From Roseimicrobium sp. ORNL1 (GTDB taxonomy: Bacteria > Verrucomicrobiota > Verrucomicrobiia > Verrucomicrobiales > Verrucomicrobiaceae), in contig NZ_CP049143.1 in NCBI RefSeq assembly GCF_011044495.1, positions 930,001-994,000 on the forward strand: a stretch of DNA of 64,000 nucleotides, in the 5' to 3' direction. The position numbers were made by a program, and so were the translations under genes. The notes below the pieces were generated by a model. It ran no database searches. It was not told the DNA's origin and saw only the letters and a program-made list of their open reading frames with translations. This document shows, in pieces, positions 15,556-40,490 of the stretch (its first letter is position 1; each line of letters starts with the position of its first letter).

Positions 15556-17298
15556 ATGTCCACCGTCGCCGTTCGTTCTGCCCAGCTTCCGCCGTCCATT
15601 CCCCTGACGGTGCGGAGGTTTCGCCAGCCGAAAAAGACCCTGCCGCAGACCAAGATCGAGCGCGATAATGTGCTGGCCAAGGTGCGTGCCTATGTAGAAA
15701 CGCACACCCTCGTGCCGCCCATGCCGCTGGAGGAACTGCGCGTGCATGCGGAGACCCTCATCGCGGAGCACAACTTCAACCCGGTGTGGATTGATTACAT
15801 CGGCGTGCTGCTGGGGAACGAAGCCTGGCGCGAAACACTGGCCACCATCCCCTACGAGCGCCGCCTCCTGCTGATGCCAAAGTGCCTCCGCGTGGAGAGC
15901 AAGTGCCCGGCGCCCTTTGATGAATTCGGTCTGCTCTGCAAGCAGTGCGGTCTTTGCACCATCCAGGATTTCCAGAATGAGGCGGAGAAGCTCGGCTATG
16001 CCGTCCTCGTGGCAGAAGGCTCGGCCATCGTCATGAGCCTCATCCAGACGGGCAAGATCGAGGCGATCGTCGGCATTTCCTGCCTGCCGGTGCTCGAGCG
16101 CACCTTCCCGTATGTGGAGGCCGCCGCCATTCCCGCTGTGGCCGTGCCGCTCCTTCAGGATGACTGCATCGACACCACGGTGGATATCGACTGGGTGTGG
16201 GACTACATCCACCTCACCAGTGATGACAAGACCCGCCGCTTGAACCTCAATGCGCTGCATGAAGAAGTGCGCGGCTGGTTCACCCGTGAATCCCTCGACG
16301 CCCTTCTCGGCAAGCCTGCAGACAAGACCGAGGAAATCGCCCGCGACTGGCTCGCCCGCGCCGGCAACCGCTGGCGTCCCTTCCTCACCGTGGCGGCTCA
16401 TCAGGCCCTGCGCGACGACTCCGAAGGCCCGCTGAGCGATGCGCTCAAGAAGGCAGCCATCGCGGTAGAGTGCTTCCACAAGGCCTCGCTGGTGCATGAC
16501 GACATCGAGGACAACGACGCCCAACGCTACGGCGAGGCCACCCTCCACGCCGAGCACGGCATGCCCGTTGCGCTGAACGTGGGCGACCTCCTCATCGGTG
16601 AAGGCTACCGCCTGCTGGTGGACAACAACGTTTCCGGCTCCCTCCGCAGCGCCATGATCAAGGTGGCCGCCGAAGGCCAGCGCGAACTCTGCCGCGGCCA
16701 GGGCGCCGAACTCCTCTGGAACAACAATCCCGTGGCCCTCACCAGTGCCCAGGTGCTGGAAATCTTCCGCAGCAAGACCGCTCCTGCCTTTGAGGTAGCT
16801 TTGAAAATCGGCGCCGCGCTGGCAGGCAAGCTGGATGACACTGCCGACGCATTGCATGACTACAGCGAGGCCCTCGGCATCGCGTATCAGATTCACGACG
16901 ACCTCGATGACCTCGGCGACGACTCCGTGGCGGACAACATCGCCGCCATGCGCCCGAGCATCGTCCTTGCCCTCCTCCGCGAACGCGGCAAGGGCGAGAT
17001 CAAGGAGACGATGGAGAAGCTCTGGAACGGTGAACTCCCCACCATGCCGGACAAGGCCACCATCCGCGACTGGGCCCAGTCCAGCACCGCGCATGAAAAG
17101 GCCATGCTCCTGCTGGAGAGCTACAAGGAGCAGGCCATCCGCTCCCTCCAGGCCGTGGACAACGCCAACCTCAAGGGCCTGCTGCGCCGTGTGATCGGGA
17201 AGATCTTCAACGATCTCGAGATCAAAGGCTGGTGCCGCGAGTTCGAGGTGAAGAACGCCACCGCTCAAGCGAAGGAAGCGGGTGCGGTGGCTGCATGA
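15556..17298 (+). CDS. Fusion of a DUF116 domain and a trans-polyprenyl diphosphate synthase
   Basis: A 580-residue two-domain protein. Residues about 100-215 form a DUF116 domain: Cys110, Cys117, Cys128, Cys131 and Cys134 (MPKCLR, KCPAP, LCKQCGLCTI), then LGYAVLVAEGSAIV. These cysteines could hold an Fe-S cluster or zinc. Residues about 250-560 form a prenyl synthase: NRWRPFL, first Asp-rich motif LVHDDIEDND at 313-321 and second YQIHDDLDDLGDD near 445-456. Known homologues of the C-terminal part condense IPP with allylic diphosphates. The fusion suggests that prenyl synthesis is coupled to a redox or metal state. Start ATG 15556. A 650-aa minus-strand frame over it is a shadow. Confidence 0.9.
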   Translation: MSTVAVRSAQLPPSIPLTVRRFRQPKKTLPQTKIERDNVLAKVRAYVETHTLVPPMPLEELRVHAETLIAEHNFNPVWIDYIGVLLGNEAWRETLATIPYERRLLLMPKCLRVESKCPAPFDEFGLLCKQCGLCTIQDFQNEAEKLGYAVLVAEGSAIVMSLIQTGKIEAIVGISCLPVLERTFPYVEAAAIPAVAVPLLQDDCIDTTVDIDWVWDYIHLTSDDKTRRLNLNALHEEVRGWFTRESLDALLGKPADKTEEIARDWLARAGNRWRPFLTVAAHQALRDDSEGPLSDALKKAAIAVECFHKASLVHDDIEDNDAQRYGEATLHAEHGMPVALNVGDLLIGEGYRLLVDNNVSGSLRSAMIKVAAEGQRELCRGQGAELLWNNNPVALTSAQVLEIFRSKTAPAFEVALKIGAALAGKLDDTADALHDYSEALGIAYQIHDDLDDLGDDSVADNIAAMRPSIVLALLRERGKGEIKETMEKLWNGELPTMPDKATIRDWAQSSTAHEKAMLLLESYKEQAIRSLQAVDNANLKGLLRRVIGKIFNDLEIKGWCREFEVKNATAQAKEAGAVAA

Positions 17299-30638: not shown

Positions 30639-32195
30639 TCACGGAGTGGGTTCGTGCGAGAGTCGAATGTCCTTGATCCAGACAGTGCCGGGTCCGTCCA
30701 GGCTGACGTTCACCAGCACCTTTCTGAGGGTTTCGTTCCGGCTGATGCTTACGGGGACGACGACTTCACGCCATTCCCATGAACCGTACATTTTTCCGGG
30801 GGTGCTTCGGGAAAAATATCGATCGCCCAGCGTGCTCTCCTTGTATACTTCCAGGAACGTCAGTGTTGAGCTTGGGGTGCCTTCGGACTTCATCATGGCA
30901 CGGCACCAGAGCTTGCCTCCCGGGGGAACGATGATGTCCTTTTGTTCAGCCACAGTGAGGATTGTGCCGTGCGGGGCTTCGATTTTGAAGGCGCCGTTCG
31001 GTGTGACCGTATGGTCCACAGAGACTTTGGTCGCGACCTGATTGAGCGTGTCGCACATCTGGGTGGCGACGGGTTGATACGCGACCGGTGGGTGAGAGTG
31101 AGCCCTGAAGTAGAGGACCATGGGGATCGCCAGCCCTGCGAGAAGGCAAAAGAAGACGCTCACAAGGATCCATGCCAGCACATTGCAGCCGCTATTTCGT
31201 GGCAGCAGGGTTGGTGCCACGTCCGTGCTGGGAGACGCAGGTGCCGTGTAGACATGCTCCAGTCCCGTCTTCACCTCGCCAGCGGATTGGTAGCGCTTTT
31301 CGCGATGCTTTTCCAAGGTGCGAAACACCACGCCATCCAGCCGAGGGTCCACGCCACTGGTCTCACTCGGAGCGGGGAATCTCCCCAGAGGAAGGCCGCC
31401 CGTGAGCATCTCATAAAACACCACGCCGAGACTGTAGATATCCGCACGATGATCGACGTCCTGCGGATGCTCAATTTGCTCCGGCGCCATGTACGCGGCG
31501 GTGCCCATGTGCATGCCCGTTTGTGTGAGCATCGCCGACGGTGGCGGGTCCTCCTTGCCATGCACAAATTTCGCCAGTCCGAAGTCCGCGATCTTCACCC
31601 GGCCCTCGCCGTCCATGAGGATGTTTTCCGGCTTCAGGTCGCGATGCAGCACGCCGCGCTCGTGGGCATACTGGAGCGCTTCGCAGAGCTTTGGTACAAT
31701 GGCGAGCGCCTCGCGTGCCGTGAGGGTGCCGGCCTGCATCGCCTGGCGGAGATTCACGCCGTCCACAAGCTCCATCAGGAGATAGGGTAGGGGAGGGCGG
31801 TCGTCCACGGAAGACGCCTCGCCGAAATCAAACACCTGCACGATGTGCGGATGATTCAACCGCGCCAGCGCCCGCGCTTCGCGATGAAACCGCTCCACCC
31901 ATCCAGCATCCGAGGCCAGTTCAGGAGGCAGGATCTTCAGCGCGGCGATGCGATCCAGATGGGGCTGGCGCACCTTGTACACCCGGCCCATACCGCCAGC
32001 GCCGAGTGGTTCGAGTATTTCGAGCTGTGGAAACGCCTTTGCCAGCATCTCCGGCTCCGGTGCCGGCATGGCAGAGGCGGGGAGGGGCTCCGTCTCCATC
32101 GCCGCCGCCATCAGACACGCCGGGCACAGGCCGCGTGGCGCGTCCGGAGGCAGCGGCTGGCTGCATTTTGGGCAGAGATTTGAGTCGGTGCTCAT
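30639..32195 (-). CDS. Transmembrane Ser/Thr protein kinase with extracytoplasmic sensor domain
   Basis: A 518-residue protein. An N-terminal zinc-ribbon-like pair CPKC (8-11) and CPAC (24-27) precedes the PknB-type kinase domain (about 57-315): GAGGMGRVY loop, Lys87 in AALKIL, HRDLKPEN at 184-191 (Asp186), DFG at 204-206, MAPEQ. A single transmembrane helix lies at about 339-363. The remaining 150 residues form an outside domain that also occurs as a free secreted protein in the next gene. It is predicted to sense an envelope or external ligand and signal inward, perhaps to the sigma factor two genes downstream. Confidence 0.92.
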   Translation of the reverse strand: MSTDSNLCPKCSQPLPPDAPRGLCPACLMAAAMETEPLPASAMPAPEPEMLAKAFPQLEILEPLGAGGMGRVYKVRQPHLDRIAALKILPPELASDAGWVERFHREARALARLNHPHIVQVFDFGEASSVDDRPPLPYLLMELVDGVNLRQAMQAGTLTAREALAIVPKLCEALQYAHERGVLHRDLKPENILMDGEGRVKIADFGLAKFVHGKEDPPPSAMLTQTGMHMGTAAYMAPEQIEHPQDVDHRADIYSLGVVFYEMLTGGLPLGRFPAPSETSGVDPRLDGVVFRTLEKHREKRYQSAGEVKTGLEHVYTAPASPSTDVAPTLLPRNSGCNVLAWILVSVFFCLLAGLAIPMVLYFRAHSHPPVAYQPVATQMCDTLNQVATKVSVDHTVTPNGAFKIEAPHGTILTVAEQKDIIVPPGGKLWCRAMMKSEGTPSSTLTFLEVYKESTLGDRYFSRSTPGKMYGSWEWREVVVPVSISRNETLRKVLVNVSLDGPGTVWIKDIRLSHEPTP

Positions 32196-32293: not shown

Positions 32294-32836
32294 TCAGTAC
32301 TTGATCGTCTTTCCACGCGAGCACACTTCCGTGTAGAAGGCATTTCCCTGACCAAGTGGCAGGCCCAGTTCGCTGCAGAGGGTGTACAGCGCCGGCGTGT
32401 CCACGTATTCCGGCAGACCGTCCGGCGTTTCCTTGAACTTGTTGCAGCCAAAGCACATCTCAAACACGCCCACGACGCGACCGGAGGCATCATAGAAGGC
32501 AAAGGCGTGGTGCGGCTTGTAACAGGGGGTGCGGTCCTGCTTGCCATGAGAAATGGTGATCGCCTTCATCAGCTGAGCCACCTGCGGCTCGGTGAGCTTC
32601 ACGCCCTTGGGATCCAGCACGCCCTTGTGCATGCGACCGTTGATGAAGAAGGAACTGGCCTCGTCCGCCGTGAAGTCATAGCAGTAGCCGCGCACTTCCG
32701 TGAAGGGAGCGTGCGGCCAGCCCTTCACTTGGGTCCCTACCGCCGGCTTCGGGGGAGCGTTGACGCCGAAATAGACACAGGAGGGCAGGGTGAAAGCCAG
32801 CAGAGCGAGAAGGCAGAGGCGTGAGACCATGGGCAT
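32294..32836 (-). CDS. Lipoprotein of unknown function
   Basis: About 180 residues with a lipoprotein signal (LCLLALLAFTLPSCVYFG; lipobox LPSC). The mature part has paired cysteines in RGYCYDFTADEAS, GVFEMCFGCNKFK and LCSELGLPLG, and a GKQDRTPCYKPHHAFAFYD strand. The ATG at 32836 is chosen because the signal peptide starts there. No family recognised. Divergent from the GcvH-like gene (160 bp apart) and outside the kinase operon. Confidence 0.75.
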   Translation of the reverse strand: MPMVSRLCLLALLAFTLPSCVYFGVNAPPKPAVGTQVKGWPHAPFTEVRGYCYDFTADEASSFFINGRMHKGVLDPKGVKLTEPQVAQLMKAITISHGKQDRTPCYKPHHAFAFYDASGRVVGVFEMCFGCNKFKETPDGLPEYVDTPALYTLCSELGLPLGQGNAFYTEVCSRGKTIKY

Positions 32837-32996
32837 GTTGTGAACGGTCCAAGCGCGATGGTCAAGAATGACAAGTGACGAATGATGTATCGGGAGGCGC
32901 CGGCCATGTCCACTGTTCGCCATTCCTCATCCGGGCTTTGTCATTTGCCCATTGACCCCTCGGCCTTTGCCTGTTGAATCCCGATTCCCGCCTCCC

Positions 32997-33485
32997 ATGC
33001 CCCTCACCTTCGTCCGCTTCAAACACGCCCGCTTCACGGCACGTTTCCCCGAAAACTATCGCTACTCCCGCAGCCACTACTGGATGGCGCCGGTGGAGGG
33101 GGAGGAGGGCCTGTGGCGCGTGGGTTTCACGAAGTTCGCCACCCGCATGCTGGGCGAACTGGTCGAGGCGAACTTCAAAGTGCAAGTGAGCGACCCCATC
33201 TTCCCCGGGGACTCCATCGGCAGCGTCGAGGGGTTCAAAGCCGCCAGCGACGTCCTCTGTGTCATGGAAGGCTCCTTTGCCGGAATGAATGACGCGCTGA
33301 ACGTCGACGCCTGCATTGTGAAGAGCGACCCCTACGAAGTCGGCTGGCTCTACGCCGCGAAGGGCCAACCGGAGGAAGACTCCCTGGATGTGCACGGCTA
33401 CGTGGCCCTCCTGCAGGAAACCATCCAGCGCATGGCAGATGCCGGGTACGGGCACGATGAGGACGGGGCAAAGGAAGACGAGTGA
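32997..33485 (+). CDS. GcvH-like lipoyl carrier protein
   Basis: A 162-residue divergent relative of glycine-cleavage H protein: SRSHYWMAPVEGEEGLWRVG, LGELVEANFKVQVSDPIFPG, then GSVEGFKAASDVLCVMEGSF with candidate lipoyl-lysine Lys81 (Glu at -3, as lipoate ligase substrates have), and DPYEVGWLYAAKG near the end as in true GcvH. No gcvT or gcvP lies nearby; instead a radical SAM gene starts 88 bp downstream on the same strand. It is expected to carry a lipoyl arm for a partner enzyme other than the glycine system (inference). ATG 32997 opens the domain. Confidence 0.85.
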   Translation: MPLTFVRFKHARFTARFPENYRYSRSHYWMAPVEGEEGLWRVGFTKFATRMLGELVEANFKVQVSDPIFPGDSIGSVEGFKAASDVLCVMEGSFAGMNDALNVDACIVKSDPYEVGWLYAAKGQPEEDSLDVHGYVALLQETIQRMADAGYGHDEDGAKEDE

Positions 33486-33573
33486 CGAAAGCCGATACAC
33501 TCTGCACCTGCCAGTCGTAGGCATACAGAATGCACGCCCGGACTTGCCATCCGTGCGATGGTACCCCGCTCGC

Positions 33574-34779
33574 ATGATTTTCTCCCTCTCCAACCGCATC
33601 CTCAGCACCGTGGACCCCAAGTGCCTCGCCAAGATGGCGTGGAACTTTGGCTTCAAGGGCGCGCGCTCCGTGATGCTGTTCAAGAAGCGGATGAAGCAGG
33701 GCATCCACTTCCCGCCCTTCCTCTACCTCAGCATCCTGAACTCGTGCAATCTGCGCTGCCAGGGCTGTTGGGTGGACGTGGAGGCTCCACGTAACGCCAT
33801 CGACCTCGATACGCTGAACCGCACGGTCAATGACGCCCGCGAGCACGGGAACAGCTTCTTTGGCATTCTCGGTGGCGAGCCCTTCATGCATCCCGAACTG
33901 CTCGACTTCCTCGCGCAGCATCCCGATTGCTACTTCCAGGTCTTCACGAACGGCCAGCTCATCACCGAGAAGGCTGCGCGCGCCATGCGGCAGATCGGCA
34001 ATGCCACACCCCTCATCAGCATCGAAGGCAGCAAGACGGTGAGCGACGAACGCCGCGGCAACAAGGATGTGCTCAATCGCACCCTGCGTGGCCTGCAACA
34101 CTGCCTGGAGCAGAAGCTCCTCACCGGCGTGGCCACCAGCCTCTGCCAGACGAATCTTGATGACCTGCTCAGCGAAGCCTGGCTGGACAAGCTCATCGAC
34201 ATGGGTGTGCACTACACGTGGTATCACACCTACCGTCCCGTGGGACCGAAGATCAATGAACAGCTCGCGCTGAATCCCAAGCAGATCCAGCGGGCACGCC
34301 GCTTCATTGTGAACATGCGTGCGCGCAAGCCCATCGCCATCGTAGATGCCTACTACGACCACGCTGGCCAAGCCTTGTGCCCCATGGCCACGGGCATCAG
34401 CCATCACGTGAGCCCGAAGGGCAGCATCGAGCCCTGTCCCATCATCCAGTTCGCTACTGAAGACATCACGGACAAGCGTGGTCTTTTCGAGACCTTCACG
34501 AACAGCGCCTTCCTTGCCGACTTCCGCAAGACTTCCGCAGAACACACCCGCGGCTGCGTGGTCCTGGAGCGTCCGGACGTGGTGAAGCAACTCGTGCTCA
34601 AGCACGGCGCCAAAGACACCACGGTTCGCCAGACTGCCATCGCCGAACTGGAGCGGATGACCCCGCGCCCGAGCCAGTGGGTGAAGGAGGAGAACATCCC
34701 CGAGAAACACTGGATGTATTGGGTCGCGAAGCGGTTCTTCTACACGGACTTCGGGGTGTACAAGGATTTGAAGGCGTGA
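33574..34779 (+). CDS. Radical SAM protein with SPASM-like C-terminal cysteines
   Basis: A 401-residue protein. The radical SAM cluster motif is NSCNLRCQGCW (Cys58, Cys62, Cys65), followed by FFGILGGEPFMHPELL (GGE motif) and PLISIEGSKTVSDERRGNKD. The C-terminal third has ALCPMATGISHHVSPKG, IEPCPIIQFATEDIT and EHTRGCVVLE, cysteines that may bind a second cluster. Substrate unknown. Its gene is co-directional with the GcvH-like, CRCxYA and ferredoxin genes. The ATG at 33574 follows a weak ribosome site; the longer frame from 33388 overlaps the GcvH-like gene. A 732-aa antisense frame here is a shadow. Confidence 0.9.
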   Translation: MIFSLSNRILSTVDPKCLAKMAWNFGFKGARSVMLFKKRMKQGIHFPPFLYLSILNSCNLRCQGCWVDVEAPRNAIDLDTLNRTVNDAREHGNSFFGILGGEPFMHPELLDFLAQHPDCYFQVFTNGQLITEKAARAMRQIGNATPLISIEGSKTVSDERRGNKDVLNRTLRGLQHCLEQKLLTGVATSLCQTNLDDLLSEAWLDKLIDMGVHYTWYHTYRPVGPKINEQLALNPKQIQRARRFIVNMRARKPIAIVDAYYDHAGQALCPMATGISHHVSPKGSIEPCPIIQFATEDITDKRGLFETFTNSAFLADFRKTSAEHTRGCVVLERPDVVKQLVLKHGAKDTTVRQTAIAELERMTPRPSQWVKEENIPEKHWMYWVAKRFFYTDFGVYKDLKA

Positions 34780-34815
34780 CAGTGGATGGGTGAATGGGTA
34801 GGCTTGGCGACAGCC

Positions 34816-35184
34816 ATGCTGAAATTCCCTCCCAAGGTCGTCGGTATCCTTTGTGTCCTGCAGGTCATGGCGATTGTGGGCACTTGTCTGATTGCCCGGA
34901 CGATGCTGAAGTTGTACAACTCGACGCAACTCACGGACGACGGTATCAGGCCGCATCGCTTGTATCTGACGGTTAGTGCCCTGCCCTATGTGGTGCCGTG
35001 GATGCTTTTGATCCCTCTTGTCTGGGGAGTGGTTGCCACCTTGCGCGCAGATATGGAGGAACGTGTGCCTTTGATTTCCGAATCGCAGACTAAAGTTGGC
35101 TATGGAGCCACCCTGTTGGTTTTGATTTTTTGCATGGTCGCCATCATGAGGTCCATCCAGATGGCATTCGAACCGTCGATATGA
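34816..35184 (+). CDS. Small membrane protein of unknown function
   Basis: About 122 residues with three hydrophobic segments: VVGILCVLQVMAIVGTCLIA, LPYVVPWMLLIPLVWGVVA and GATLLVLIFCMVAIMRSI. Polar loops contain LYNSTQLTDDGIRPHRLY and ERVPLISESQTK. No family recognised. The upstream ATG at 34786 is possible. Located between the radical SAM and CRCxYA genes on the same strand; whether it belongs to that set or is an insertion is unclear. Confidence 0.6.
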   Translation: MLKFPPKVVGILCVLQVMAIVGTCLIARTMLKLYNSTQLTDDGIRPHRLYLTVSALPYVVPWMLLIPLVWGVVATLRADMEERVPLISESQTKVGYGATLLVLIFCMVAIMRSIQMAFEPSI

Positions 35185-35301
35185 CAGCAGGAAGTTGGTC
35201 GTGCGGTGTTGAATGCAAGTGAGGACGGAGCTTTGATTGTTTTGGCCTCGCGAATGCCCCTTGTACCCGGCTTGCAGGCGTAGCATAGTTGTCCTGTGAC
35301 C

Positions 35302-35646
35302 ATGTCCGAGCCCTCTTCCCAAGCCCCCAAGCTCCTCTACTGCCGCTGTGCCTATGCCCAGGTGGTGCCGCAGGGCGTGAAGAATGGCGTGCTGGAGAAG
35401 CTGTGCGAATCTGGCGCGAGCTTTGAATCCGTCTCCGATCTTTGCGAGATGGCGGCTCATCGCGACCCACGGCTCAAAGCCTTTGCGGAGACCACCCCGC
35501 TGCGCATCGCTGCCTGCTATCCCCGCGTGGTGCGCGGTCTTTTCCGCCAGTGTGGCTCCCCGCTGCCCGAGGAGGGCGCGGAGGTGCTCAACATGCGCGC
35601 CCAGAGTGCGGAGGAAGTTGCGGATGGCATGCTGAAAGCGGAGTGA
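35302..35646 (+). CDS. Cysteine-motif (CRCxYA) protein of unknown function
   Basis: A 114-residue soluble protein with conserved-looking cysteines: LLYCRCAYAQVVPQGVKNGV at the start, SDLCEMAAHRDPRL in the middle, and TPLRIAACYPRVVRGLFRQC at the end, followed by EVLNMRAQSAEEV. The spacing of single and paired cysteines on a compact alpha/beta pattern suggests an Fe-S or thiol-redox subunit of the heterodisulfide-reductase kind, but I cannot place it in a named family. It belongs to the co-directional run with the radical SAM and ferredoxin genes. A GTG at 35296 would add two residues. Confidence 0.7.
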   Translation: MSEPSSQAPKLLYCRCAYAQVVPQGVKNGVLEKLCESGASFESVSDLCEMAAHRDPRLKAFAETTPLRIAACYPRVVRGLFRQCGSPLPEEGAEVLNMRAQSAEEVADGMLKAE

Positions 35647-35679
35647 TCTTTTTCGTTTTTCCCACGTATACTCTGGGTC

Positions 35680-36375
35680 ATGTCCACTCCCGCCAGACAG
35701 CCTGTGCCCCAGGCTCCGAAACAGGTGACGCGCATCGGTCCGATGACCATGCAGGAGTACCTGCGCCGGGAACGTGAGTCAGAGTTCAAGCATGAGTACC
35801 GGGATGGCTACATGTACCCGGTGGGTGAGATGTTGGCGATGTCTGGGGGGACGATTCCGCACAGCAAAATCAAGGTGAACTTGATGCGAGAGCTTGGTAC
35901 CCGCCTGCGCGGAAAGAAGTGCCAGCCATTTGATTCCGACTTGATGATTCTGCTCACGCACGCAAACAAGGGTGCCTACCCCGATGCAAGCGTGTTCTGT
36001 GAACCGCTGGAAGTCACGGAAGAGGAGAAGAATGCTCCTGCCAACCCATCAGCCATCTTTGAGGTTCTCTCCAGTTCCACCGAGGCGTATGACCGGGGGG
36101 GGAAGTTCGAGGCGTATCAGCAGGTTGCCTCGATGAGGCTCTACATTCTCATTTCGCAAAGCCATCCCCTTGTTGAAGTCTACGAACGCCCGGAAGGCGG
36201 TGGCTCTCAATGGCTCTACACCGCGTATGCGCGCATGGACGCCGTCGCAAAACTCCCCGCCCTTGGCATCGAAATTCCGCTCGTCGACCTCTACGAAAAC
36301 GTCGAGTTCCCTCCCGAAGATCCCCTTTACACAGCCATGCTGCGCGAGCAGGAGGCTGCTTACGCCATCCCATGA
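35680..36375 (+). CDS. Uma2 family (DUF820) restriction-endonuclease-fold protein
   Basis: A 231-residue protein with the Uma2 pattern: MTMQEYLRRERESEFKHEY, DGYMYPVGEMLAMSGGTIPH, LGTRLRGKKCQPFDSDLMIL, YPDASVFCE, and the PD-(D/E)XK-like core IFEVLSSSTEAYDRGGKFEA then YQQVASMRLYILISQ. Members have a nuclease fold and are spread as multicopy genes in Cyanobacteria, Planctomycetes and Verrucomicrobia; their role is unclear. Its TGA overlaps the ATG of the ferredoxin gene (ATGA), so it has become translationally coupled to it. Confidence 0.88.
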   Translation: MSTPARQPVPQAPKQVTRIGPMTMQEYLRRERESEFKHEYRDGYMYPVGEMLAMSGGTIPHSKIKVNLMRELGTRLRGKKCQPFDSDLMILLTHANKGAYPDASVFCEPLEVTEEEKNAPANPSAIFEVLSSSTEAYDRGGKFEAYQQVASMRLYILISQSHPLVEVYERPEGGGSQWLYTAYARMDAVAKLPALGIEIPLVDLYENVEFPPEDPLYTAMLREQEAAYAIP

Positions 36376-37226
36376 TCACCCACACCGCCCGCCCGCTTCG
36401 CGTCGTCCTTTACGAAGGCAACGGCGCCATCCCTCTCTCCGTCGAGGCCAGGACCCAGGTCATGGTCGCGCTACTGGACAAGGGCTATGTGGTCACACGT
36501 GCCACGGCTCAAGGCGGCGGCGCGATGCCACACGATGATCGCAGTCTGCTGGTGCTGGGTTTGTTTCCCGAAAAGCAGGCGCCCAATCTCGAGGACGTCA
36601 CCGGCCAGGTCAGCATCCAGTCGCGCGACATCACCGGACTCGATGCCGAGGCGGTGTTGGAACTTGTGGAGAAGGTGCGCGGCGCTGAGCCCATGAACCA
36701 GCCCGGGACGTGGAAGCCGTGGTTCCCCGTCATCGACTACTCCCGCTGCACGAACTGCATGCAGTGCCTGAGCTTCTGCTTGTTCGACGTGTACAGCGTC
36801 AGCGACATCGGCAAGATCCAGGTCGAGAACAACGACAACTGCAAGACGAACTGTCCCGCCTGCTCCCGCGTGTGCCCGGAGGTGGCCATCATGTTCCCGA
36901 AATACTCCGCCGGTCCCATCAATGGCGACGTGGTGAATGACGAGGATCTCCGTCGCGAGAAGATGAAGGTGGACATCACCAGCCTGCTCGGAGGCGATAT
37001 CTACTCCCGCCTGCGCGATCGCAGCGAGGCCGCGAAGAGCCGTTTCAGCAAGGAGCGCAGCGCGGACAAGGCGCTGGATGAACGCAAGAAGTGCCTCACC
37101 AAGATGGCGCAGGATGGCTTCATCCCAGCCGAGGTGCTCGCCGCCCTGCCGTCTCCGGATGAGATCATGCGCAAGGCCGAGGCTGCCCAGGCCAAAGCTG
37201 CTGCCGCCCTGGCTCCCGGTTCCTAG
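36372..37226 (+). CDS. Two-cluster 4Fe-4S ferredoxin-like protein with an N-terminal alpha/beta domain
   Basis: A 284-residue protein. Residues 1-100 form an alpha/beta domain (RPLRVVLYEGNGAIPLSVEA; SLLVLGLFPEKQAPN). Residues about 115-180 carry two clusters: YSRCTNCMQCLSFCLFDVY and NCKTNCPACSRVCPEVAIMF. The C-terminal part is charged and helical (RLRDRSEAAKSRFSKERS; Ala-rich tail). It is an electron carrier or a subunit of a redox complex; cytoplasmic. The start is fixed by ATGA overlap with the Uma2 stop. Together with the lipoyl carrier, radical SAM and CRCxYA genes it suggests a redox pathway. Confidence 0.85.
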   Translation: MITHTARPLRVVLYEGNGAIPLSVEARTQVMVALLDKGYVVTRATAQGGGAMPHDDRSLLVLGLFPEKQAPNLEDVTGQVSIQSRDITGLDAEAVLELVEKVRGAEPMNQPGTWKPWFPVIDYSRCTNCMQCLSFCLFDVYSVSDIGKIQVENNDNCKTNCPACSRVCPEVAIMFPKYSAGPINGDVVNDEDLRREKMKVDITSLLGGDIYSRLRDRSEAAKSRFSKERSADKALDERKKCLTKMAQDGFIPAEVLAALPSPDEIMRKAEAAQAKAAAALAPGS

Positions 37227-37250: not shown

Positions 37251-40200
37251 TCAGGGCACGCCTTTTTTGGGTACGATCATCTCCTCCACCAGAGGTGATG
37301 GCTGATGAACGAGCGGCGTGAACTTCCAATCCAGCCGCAGTCGCGCGACCTCCTGGCGTATCCACGCCATGTCCCACTGGAACAGGAAGCCCTGAGGATT
37401 CGCGGAGAGGAATTGGGATCCATCAGGACCGAAACACAGCGGCACATGCGGACCGCAGTCTGGCTCGCCGACGTCCTCCAGGGTTTCTGCATTCACCATC
37501 TTCACCTTGTTCCTCGCGTAGGGAATGGCGGCGACGGTTCCGCGCGGGCTCATGGCGATGTGATCTCCAATCTGGTCGTGCTTGGGATGCACGGCACCCG
37601 GCTTCCACGTGCTGGTGTCCCAGCAGCGGAACTCCTCCGAGCTTCCGGTGATGAGCCACTTGCCATTCACGGCAAATGCGACCGCGGCGCCTCCCGGGAT
37701 GGCGAGCTTCTGCACGACCTCACCGGTCTGCGCATTCCACACCCACACATCATTGCCCATCGCATAGGTGCCCGTCGCCACGAGACGCCCATCCGGACTC
37801 ATCGAGACGGTGTGAGCTCGCGCATGACCGGTGAGCGTCAGTGGTGCAGAACCACGGCTGCTGAGGTTGAATACACGCACTCCATCATCAAACACCACCG
37901 CCAGTCGTTGCTCATCTCCGGCCAGCGCCGAATATCCGTGAGAGGGGTCACGAGTGAGCGCTTCTGGTTCGTCCAGCACGACCTGCAGCTTCTTGCCGGA
38001 TGTCTGCGTCTGCATGGGCCAGCGCCAGACACCACTACCGCCGGTGACGATCAGAGAGTCCTTGCAGAAGAAGAGACCGCGCGGCGCCTGGAAATTCAGT
38101 GAGGCCAGCTCGTAGCCCTCCGCATTCCAGAAGCGCACCTTCTCCGATGTAGCTCCAATGATTGATCCATCGTGATTCCAAGCAGCACGATAGACCGTGC
38201 CATCGGACGGACTGCGCAGGCGACGACACGCTCCGAGCGAAGTCACCTCATACAATCGCACACGCGTGCCATCCTGCCCCACACCGAGACGTGAACCGTC
38301 CGTGGAGAATTGCAGGTGCTCCGTGGTGGACTCCTGGGACACATACATTTCCCCGGTGGTCGCATCCCACAGCTTCAGGCTGCCATCCCGCGAGCCGGTG
38401 GCGATGAGTTCTCCTCCGGGATTCCAGACGGCCTCGTAAACATTATCCAGTGGACCGGAAATCATCTGTCGAAGCGTCCCAGTCTCGGCATCCCAGATGC
38501 GGATGGTTCGCTCTCGTGGCGAGGGAACGGCGAGCCAGTTCATCCGCGGGTGCCATGCAAAGCGTCCCACCGTGGCGGGATGGTCCAGCCAGGACGTTTT
38601 TACTTCTGCCTGTCGCAGGTCGAGCAGCATGACACGACCTTCAGGCATTGCTTCGTTGCTGACAAAGTTGATGGCCAGAAAGTCGCCGCGCGGTGACACT
38701 GCCACCATCCTGGCCTCCGCAGGGAGGGCCACTGGTGCCCCCTGCAGCGAGCCATGAGCCAACTCGTAAATACGAAGTTCGCGATCCAGGCACACACAGA
38801 TGCGAGAGGCGTCGGACCAGAAACTCAGCGCGCCGTCGTGCACGCCATGCCACTGGTGGATCAAGGTGGCATTCTTCCAGTCCCACACTTTCACATCCAT
38901 GATGCGGTCTGCGGAGCTCTCGTATCCGACCGCCAGCCAGTGGGCATCAGGACTGAAGCGGATGAGCCGTGATGCCGCTTTTCCTTCGCCCGGCAGCACC
39001 GACACTTGTTTGGATGAAGCTCGCTCCGTCACCACCACCGTGCCGTCCTTCAACGCATGAGCCGTGAGGGTGAAGTCGGTACTCAGAGCCACGATGGGCT
39101 GACGATCAGGATTGCCCTCCCACACTTCCGCAGGACGCAAGTCGGAGATGACGAGCACGGCCACGGCTTCGTTCTGCAACTCCATGGAGGGGCGGATGGC
39201 GGCGGCGCGCTGCAGCGATTCAATGGCGAGATAGCGAGCACCCGGCTGATGGCTCCATCGCCGTGCCCGGGCTTCGGAGAGGAGAGAATCCCACAAGATG
39301 CTGGTCTGCTCTTTGCGAGCCTGTACGGCTTCGGTCCAGTTGATGAACACGCCGGCGAGTCCAATCAGCGCCGTGAGAACCAGCGCGACGCTCAGGACGG
39401 CGACACCGGGCCTCCGCCGTGCCCACTTCATCGCGCGCGAGGTGATGGTGCTCGCTCTCGCACGGATGGGCATGTCCTTGAGCCAGTGTTCCAGATCCTC
39501 GGCGAGCGCCAGGGCGGAGTCATACCTTCGCTCGACTTTTTTCTCCACGCATTTGAGGCAGATGATCTCCAGTTCCCGATCCATCGTACTGCATTGCACC
39601 CTCAGAGGTTGCGGTTCGCGCTCCACCACCTGCCGCAGGGTTTCCGCCACGGTCTTACCCCGGAAAAGCGGTCGACCACTCAGAGCCTCGTAGAGCACCG
39701 CGCCCAGGCTGTACACATCACACGCCGTGGTGAGATCCTCTCCCGTAGCCTGTTCGGGAGACATGTAGGCCGGAGTGCCAAACACCAGATCCGAGCGCGT
39801 GAGGGAGAAGGCGGCGTCATCCAATCGCGCCAGACCAAAGTCCACCAGAAGCGGATTGCCCGCCTCATTGAGGAGGATGTTGCTTGGCTTGATGTCGCGA
39901 TGCAGGATCCCATGCTGGTGGGAAAAGTGCACCGCCCTTGCGACGGTGGCGACAAGCTGTGCCGCGCGCCGCATGGGCAGCGCACCTCTGGCAATTTCAT
40001 CCGCCAGGCTTCTGGCGTTTTCCACCAGTTGCATGGCCATGTAGGGACAGTTCTCGTGGTATCCCCATTCGTGCACCGCGATGATGTTGGGATGCTGCAG
40101 GCGAGCCGCTGCCTCCGCCTCCCGGCGAAACCTCTCCAACTGCTCTGGTGAGGCAAAGTCCGCCCATGGCAGCACCTTGAGCGCCACCTTCCGGTTCAGT

Positions 40201-40490
40201 TTGGCGTGGCGGGCCTCATACACCTTGCCCATGCCGCCACGGCCGATCTCGCGAAGGATTTCGTACGCCCCCACGTGGAATCCCACCTTGAAGGACGTGG
40301 TCGTCTTGTGGGCTGATTCCTCCGCAGGCGTGTCCACGCCTTCCATCGTGCCACCATCGTTACCGGTACTGTGGCAAGTCGCCAGCTTCAGGAGACACGC
40401 CGGGCACAGGAACTCCGGAGCCTGCTCGGGCACGGGATTGCCGCACACCGGGCAGGCTGCTGTGACATGCGCAGGAGAGGGAGTCGCCAT
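37251..40490 (-). CDS. Transmembrane Ser/Thr kinase with C-terminal WD40 propeller
   Basis: A 1079-residue protein. An N-terminal ribbon (CPVC 13-16, CPAC 29-32) precedes the kinase domain (about 76-345) with GRGGMGKVY, Lys105 in VALKVL, HRDIKPSN at 197-204, DFG at 217-219 and MSPEQ. One membrane helix spans about 361-383. The remaining 690 residues are WD40-like repeats (for example WHPRMNWLAVPSPRERTIRI, WNPGGELIATGSRDGSLKLW, VSMSPDGRLVATGTYAM). The propeller would be outside the inner membrane and may bind a protein partner. Convergent with the ferredoxin gene (24 bp). Part of a sigma-lipoprotein-kinase set. Confidence 0.93.
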   Translation of the reverse strand: MATPSPAHVTAACPVCGNPVPEQAPEFLCPACLLKLATCHSTGNDGGTMEGVDTPAEESAHKTTTSFKVGFHVGAYEILREIGRGGMGKVYEARHAKLNRKVALKVLPWADFASPEQLERFRREAEAAARLQHPNIIAVHEWGYHENCPYMAMQLVENARSLADEIARGALPMRRAAQLVATVARAVHFSHQHGILHRDIKPSNILLNEAGNPLLVDFGLARLDDAAFSLTRSDLVFGTPAYMSPEQATGEDLTTACDVYSLGAVLYEALSGRPLFRGKTVAETLRQVVEREPQPLRVQCSTMDRELEIICLKCVEKKVERRYDSALALAEDLEHWLKDMPIRARASTITSRAMKWARRRPGVAVLSVALVLTALIGLAGVFINWTEAVQARKEQTSILWDSLLSEARARRWSHQPGARYLAIESLQRAAAIRPSMELQNEAVAVLVISDLRPAEVWEGNPDRQPIVALSTDFTLTAHALKDGTVVVTERASSKQVSVLPGEGKAASRLIRFSPDAHWLAVGYESSADRIMDVKVWDWKNATLIHQWHGVHDGALSFWSDASRICVCLDRELRIYELAHGSLQGAPVALPAEARMVAVSPRGDFLAINFVSNEAMPEGRVMLLDLRQAEVKTSWLDHPATVGRFAWHPRMNWLAVPSPRERTIRIWDAETGTLRQMISGPLDNVYEAVWNPGGELIATGSRDGSLKLWDATTGEMYVSQESTTEHLQFSTDGSRLGVGQDGTRVRLYEVTSLGACRRLRSPSDGTVYRAAWNHDGSIIGATSEKVRFWNAEGYELASLNFQAPRGLFFCKDSLIVTGGSGVWRWPMQTQTSGKKLQVVLDEPEALTRDPSHGYSALAGDEQRLAVVFDDGVRVFNLSSRGSAPLTLTGHARAHTVSMSPDGRLVATGTYAMGNDVWVWNAQTGEVVQKLAIPGGAAVAFAVNGKWLITGSSEEFRCWDTSTWKPGAVHPKHDQIGDHIAMSPRGTVAAIPYARNKVKMVNAETLEDVGEPDCGPHVPLCFGPDGSQFLSANPQGFLFQWDMAWIRQEVARLRLDWKFTPLVHQPSPLVEEMIVPKKGVP

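Follow-up and report, generated by a model that had tools for sequence, protein, structure and literature searches.

A co-inherited gene set of Verrucomicrobiota as a candidate radical SAM isoprenoid-tailoring pathway with a lipoyl carrier/GTPase add-on

We analysed a stretch of 64,000 nucleotides of the Roseimicrobium sp. ORNL1 genome (contig NZ_CP049143.1, positions 930,001 to 994,000; hereafter the window), in which the span 32997-37226 encodes a GcvH-like lipoyl carrier, a radical S-adenosylmethionine (SAM) enzyme, a 114-amino-acid protein with a CRC motif (the CRC protein) and a ferredoxin. These four genes belong together and are co-inherited, and two further genes, seen together with them in other families of the order, accompany them: a CobW-type GTPase and a fusion of DUF116 with a polyprenyl synthase. 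We infer that the gene set probably makes or modifies an isoprenoid lipid, and we tentatively favour, at slightly less than an even chance, a two-module pathway of Verrucomicrobiota in which radical SAM tailoring of an isoprenoid is joined by a lipoyl/GTPase add-on. A preliminary description of the span had proposed an undescribed redox or sulfur pathway dependent on a lipoyl arm. We found no published description of this gene set in the openly licensed literature, and while five of the six proteins can be placed in known superfamilies, the CRC protein matched no family in Pfam or NCBIfam. The genes of the set are as follows (G, C and L numbers and f3 are our labels for genomes, contigs, loci and a family).

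15556..17298, plus strand: DUF116-polyprenyl synthase fusion (core), 16 kb upstream of the span; PF01976 and PF00348
32997..33485, plus strand: GcvH-like lipoyl carrier (accessory module); PF01597, 61.7 bits, Lys81 the predicted lipoyl site
33574..34779, plus strand: radical SAM enzyme with an additional C-terminal cysteine set (core); PF04055, 46.6 bits
35302..35646, plus strand: CRC protein, 114 amino acids, alpha/beta domain with four invariant cysteines (core); AlphaFold model and alignments
36372..37226, plus strand: ferredoxin with N-terminal alpha/beta domain, two-cluster part and conserved C-terminal part (core); Fer4 matches and alignments
G000:C1:7245032-7246126, outside the window in the same genome: CobW-type GTPase (accessory)

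Co-inheritance within Verrucomicrobiales

All genes named in the preliminary description are present in the span as described and lie on the plus strand, but the gene list was incomplete, since the DUF116-polyprenyl synthase and the CobW GTPase, both of which shift the likely meaning of the set, had been missed. The co-occurrence of the four genes in other genomes, put forward there as a check, was borne out genome-wide among 141 genomes of the order. Searched gene by gene, the ferredoxin, DUF116, GcvH-like and CRC genes were each present in 88 of these genomes, the radical SAM gene in 87 and the CobW gene in 91, with presence cut-offs (E < 1e-40 for the GcvH-like and < 1e-50 for the radical SAM protein) that we set in clear gaps between these and other homologues. 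According to a tally compiled by hand from the per-gene search tables, 76 genomes held all six genes, 12 held five, two held four and two held three, which makes 92 with three or more; 49 held none, and one or two genes alone were found in no genome. Eight of the 16 genomes with an incomplete set are less than 90% complete, and the other eight (G049, G086, G094, G100, G101, G106, G111, G134) are drafts of 90-96% completeness in about 110 or more contigs, where some of the gaps may be real losses. The entire set is absent from five genomes of family f3 (G085, G088, G091, G140, G159), the pattern one would see if it were lost as a whole.

The physical linkage is uneven. At one locus (L136, 4789-10649) the GcvH-like, CobW, radical SAM, CRC, ferredoxin and DUF116-synthase genes form a contiguous six-gene operon, the radical SAM, CobW and GcvH-like genes stand in one cluster in L144, and the DUF116-synthase shares an operon with other genes of the set in L136 and others. 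Among 80 named ferredoxin loci, which are the best 80 of 429 relatives and were chosen for the ferredoxin, the CRC gene was found in 73, the radical SAM gene in 32 and the GcvH-like gene in 12; where a GcvH-like, DUF116 or radical SAM gene stood alone, we recognised no further recurring partner among the 45 largest clusters of neighbouring genes. The loose link between the GcvH-like gene and the ferredoxin (12/80) is what one would see if unrelated housekeeping genes adjoined here by accident, a reading that is scarcely credible because the six-way co-occurrence already contradicts it, as do the joint absence, the CRC-ferredoxin fusions and the shared loci in distant families.

Core and accessory genes across the phylum

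The ferredoxin profile matched at least 61 of 387 genomes of the phylum, and 40 of the 54 matches outside the order were taken as a distant sample (14 were left out). At these 40 loci we found the radical SAM gene in 31, the DUF116-synthase in 29, the CRC domain in 26, the CobW gene in five and a GcvH-type match in four, one of which (L304) belongs to the weak matches described below. Fusions with the CRC domain ahead of the ferredoxin account for at least 15 of the 34 ferredoxin open reading frames (ORFs) listed from the distant relatives. The distant core is thus the CRC protein, the ferredoxin, the radical SAM enzyme and the DUF116-synthase.

A strong GcvH-like match (E 1.6e-49 or better) was present in only five of the 40 distant genomes (G464, G372, G176, G268, G222). 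In 29 others there were weaker matches alone (E 2e-12 to 4e-21), which we take from their sequence scores to be ordinary GcvH, since these are about those of the second GcvH copies in the five, and in six there was none. The CobW gene, counted at the ferredoxin loci, occurs at those of the same five genomes. The lipoyl carrier and the CobW GTPase therefore resemble a single accessory module, added to a core that works without either.

The radical SAM enzyme, CobW GTPase and GcvH-like protein co-occur, and their genes share an operon in L136 and a cluster in L144, which also brings in the strongest rival to the isoprenoid reading, namely that the set assembles a metallocofactor, perhaps a thiol-bearing metal centre, in a manner akin to [FeFe]-hydrogenase maturation. 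There, according to the abstracts of two studies, the H-protein works with HydE, HydG and HydF (PMC11736057, PMC12752695), and the likeness lies in the trio itself, with the radical SAM enzyme corresponding to HydE/HydG, the GTPase to HydF and the lipoyl carrier to the aminomethyl-lipoyl-H-protein. By this analogy such an assembly role is conceivable, but we consider it unlikely: the GTPase of the present set is CobW-like, the trio is not universal, given that the core persists in most of the distant genomes examined although they lack the carrier, and at most of the distant loci although these lack the GTPase, and the prenyl synthase that belongs to the set would be left unexplained.

The DUF116-polyprenyl synthase and adjacent toroid-fold genes

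The fusion protein encoded at 15556-17298 scores well above the cut-offs of both its families (PF00348, 135.3 against 27 bits; PF01976, 119.4 against 25 bits) and holds both aspartate-rich motifs, DDIED and DDLDD. The first DDxxD motif and seven cysteines of DUF116 are kept in all 33 aligned DUF116-synthase sequences. Two other PF00348 genes are present in the genome, so the housekeeping role does not have to fall to the DUF116-synthase. A gene of the prenyltransferase/squalene-hopene-cyclase (alpha-alpha toroid) fold lies no more than 2.3 kb from the DUF116-synthase in 24 of the 29 distant and 10 of the 20 named loci that have the synthase, compared with 0 of 11 distant and 0 of 60 named loci without it, in a comparison of loci of differing length that had been chosen for the ferredoxin. 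These are merged counts, used because the two queries cross-match (23 and 19 of 29 separately); at least eight distant loci carry two toroid-fold genes.

DUF116 is also present in methanogens, which served as control genomes. An earlier study predicted a flavodoxin-like fold for DUF116, proposed a role in electron transfer and pointed out that Psta_0175 of Pirellula staleyi fuses it to a polyprenyl synthetase (PMC5898192). The protein of the present set shows the same domain fusion, and the passages of that account consulted here are without mention of radical SAM, CRC, ferredoxin, CobW or GcvH-like partners. The proposed role would also suit an electron-transfer or respiratory module in which DUF116, the CRC protein and the ferredoxin link membrane polyferredoxins to a quinone-like lipid, the radical SAM enzyme acting merely in maturation. 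Membrane and soluble polyferredoxin genes do lie near the core in six and nine of the 40 distant loci, respectively, but none were found at the Verrucomicrobiales loci examined and the intact catalytic motifs of the prenyl synthase point to synthesis, which makes such a module a rather improbable explanation.

The radical SAM enzyme, the ferredoxin and the CRC protein

The extra C-terminal cysteines that the preliminary description had seen in the radical SAM protein proved to be conserved: all 37 aligned sequences keep the CX3CX2C motif and three further cysteines (59, 63, 66, 270, 289 and 329, in a numbering that runs one higher than the count from the start methionine). The enzyme falls far below the curated cut-offs of HpnH (44.2 against 225.05 bits), AhbC (55 against 650) and NirJ (52 against 515.45). 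The ferredoxin was likewise recovered, by Fer4 matches and, for the N-terminal alpha/beta domain ascribed to it, by a structure model, and its cluster-binding stretches, RCTNCMQCLSFC and CKTNCPACSRVCP, are identical across 14 aligned sequences. The model is confident only for about residues 9-103, and a fold search with it, in which only this N-terminal part is reliable, gave no clear relative. The order of strands and helices is similar in the models of the ferredoxin N-terminal domain and the CRC protein; we do not claim that the former is a decayed copy of the latter, as a profile comparison of the two gave no significant result, with a probability of 1.1% and an E value of 0.047.

Four cysteines of the CRC protein (14, 16, 48 and 72) do not vary among the 32 aligned sequences. 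In the AlphaFold model (predicted local distance difference test score 88) they sit where three strands end or immediately beyond, a placement that would fit a [4Fe-4S] site. The protein may also resemble the N-terminal domain of HdrA, an idea first raised by the cysteine pattern of HdrA and tested afterwards. Seven HdrA-type N-domains from genomes of the phylum have invariant cysteines at 16, 18, 51 and 76 and an N-x-R at 103-105, of which the counterparts in the CRC protein are Cys 14, 16, 48 and 72 and the N-x-R at 97-99; the cysteine spacing is thus 2, 32 and 24 in the CRC protein and 2, 33 and 25 in HdrA, followed in each by N-x-R. A spacing as HdrA-like as this arose in 2 of 10,000 random placements (2e-4), a post hoc figure, as the resemblance had been noticed before testing.

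A structural search with the CRC model (VIA-align) had HdrA chains among its matches, 8rvy_A (Z 6.8, root-mean-square deviation 3.8, 105 aligned residues, 16% identity) and 5odc_A (Z 5.7, deviation 4.0, 105 aligned residues, 20% identity), which tie with unrelated folds, the top row being PurE with Z 7.8. By hhalign, the comparison with the HdrA N-domain gave E 0.0016 and a probability of 16%, and with a wider CRC alignment E 0.0075 and 5%, a score that 4 of 200 column-shuffled controls equalled. A sequence search of solved structures with the CRC profile found two designed proteins alone, by way of repeated low-scoring segments. Unlike the HdrA domain, the CRC protein stands alone or is fused to the ferredoxin, and no flavin adenine dinucleotide domain was seen. 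Taken together, the likeness of the CRC protein to the HdrA N-domain is suggestive.

The GcvH-like lipoyl carrier

The lipoyl-type Lys81 with a glutamate at -3 (Lys80 and Glu77 when the start methionine is left uncounted) belongs to an E-x-x-K-A motif that all 19 aligned sequences share, the protein of the window among them, and the protein accordingly carries a GcvH-type lipoyl motif with a lysine predicted from sequence to be lipoylated. It shares family and motif with the H protein of glycine cleavage, and its PF01597 match is above the Pfam cut-off. With regard to the gcvH equivalog cut-off of 115.85 bits, it reaches only 63.2, whereas the other GcvH of the genome, to which it is 30% identical, reaches 152.2. 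Inspection of the ORF list of the window by eye agreed with the preliminary description in that no gcvT or gcvP was noticed near the gene. The possibility raised there that the protein is the sole GcvH of the genome and serves a gcvPT elsewhere is ruled out by a separate gcvT-gcvH-gcvP operon with its own GcvH at G000:C1:637321-641837. In contrast to GcvH, the gene partners of the GcvH-like protein are CobW, the radical SAM enzyme and Fe-S proteins. Judged by its sequence, the protein encoded at 32997-33485 is not a glycine cleavage H protein. A lipoate-protein ligase gene was not noticed beside the genes in the ORF list inspected by eye, the genome not having been searched for one.

Further observations concern the gene in other genomes. 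G024 holds two equal-scoring GcvH-like copies (C2:526572-527045 and C6:18616-19089), perhaps an assembly duplicate, and in several f3 genomes (e.g. G125, G149, G119) the GcvH-like matches contain one internal stop codon (TGA, TAG or TAA), perhaps the natural gene end read through.

The invariant lysine and the HdrA-N-like cysteine pattern of the CRC protein bear on the original proposal of a lipoyl-arm-dependent sulfur pathway like sHdr. That system, as described in passages of one study, employs the GcvH-like LbpA and has radical SAM genes nearby (PMC6067878), and in both sets a GcvH-like carrier is encoded next to Fe-S proteins and radical SAM enzymes. The differences are that the carrier is optional and the prenyl synthase part of the core in the present set, and that the genome gave no match to HdrA (NF041778) at E <= 1e-30, with 6 of 29 first-look candidates scored. 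Moreover, no HdrB or HdrC family was among the Pfam and NCBIfam matches listed for the core proteins. An sHdr-type pathway is thus not indicated; we consider it quite improbable and rejected it as the leading view because no HdrA matched at that threshold among the candidates scored and the core survives without the carrier. What stands of the original proposal is that the genes belong together and that the lipoyl-type lysine is kept; what does not is a lipoyl-dependent core, the GcvH-like protein being found in five of 40 distant genomes.

Proposed pathway

The gene set and its co-inheritance, the fusion of CRC and ferredoxin, the conserved cysteines and the motifs of the prenyl synthase suggest a sequence of events whose catalytic steps, clusters and product are all putative. 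The DUF116-polyprenyl synthase would make an isoprenyl diphosphate chain, which may often be passed to the adjacently encoded enzymes of the prenyltransferase/squalene-cyclase fold. The radical SAM enzyme would then make a radical change on the isoprenoid or on some partner attached to this, with the CRC protein, as a predicted stand-alone [4Fe-4S] domain, and the ferredoxin acting as a dedicated electron line to the enzyme and perhaps also feeding electrons to the DUF116 cysteines. In some lineages, including the present one, the lipoyl carrier and the CobW-type GTPase may supply a dithiol or metal service.

Several points weigh against this isoprenoid-tailoring pathway. Its substrate as well as its product are putative, and the cut-off of HpnH, an isoprenoid family, is far out of reach for the radical SAM enzyme. 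A pattern search detected no second DDxxD motif in 5 of the 33 DUF116-synthase sequences, and toroid-fold genes were not found in the 64-kb window. The genes are often scattered, with radical SAM at 32 and GcvH-like at 12 of the 80 ferredoxin loci, the pairwise co-occurrence value (p < 1e-26) is a nominal one that ignores relatedness, and the HdrA likeness of the CRC protein is weak at the sequence level, as seen in the hhalign values and shuffled controls.

Neighbouring genes

Two further ORFs inside the span, absent from the preliminary description, are listed here as passengers.

34786..35184, plus strand: small membrane protein; in 2/80 named loci, 37-38% identity
35680..36375, plus strand: Uma2-family gene (PF05685) between the CRC and ferredoxin genes; in 1/80 named loci (L092) at the same place

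We rejected both as parts of the system, as they are kept in only two and one of the 80 named loci, respectively. The Uma2-family gene at L092 (1006-1638) is 44% identical and also lies between the CRC and ferredoxin genes, so that this gap holds a Uma2 gene in two different genomes, as if it had been a landing site more than once. A divergent neighbour that lies upstream of the GcvH-like gene (32294-32923, minus strand) is kept in L064, L065, L084, L085 and L130 with 59-73% identity. The region is flanked by ORFs at 30639-32195 and 37251-40490, both on the minus strand, whose translations look serine/threonine kinase-like by eye, the latter including a WD40-like repeat part. Outside the order, the core was seen near polyferredoxins, an NHL-repeat membrane protein and several beta-propeller proteins of the pyrroloquinoline quinone type (L270, 809-2901; L273, 12334-13398; L275, 451-3222).

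Significance

The isoprenoid-tailoring reading has a further-reaching form, which we regard as doubtful: the product would be a new redox-active isoprenoid, a cofactor or lipid made by Verrucomicrobiota and perhaps also by Planctomycetes, a minimal HdrA-like line would feed the radical SAM enzyme, and in some lineages the lipoyl arm and the GTPase would add a step performed by no known lipoyl protein. A set that is kept together across many families of the phylum, and for which we found no described function, points to a new pathway in which radical SAM chemistry and isoprenoid synthesis are combined with an optional lipoyl carrier. The set also gives DUF116, a family of unknown function, a bacterial context in which it can be tested.

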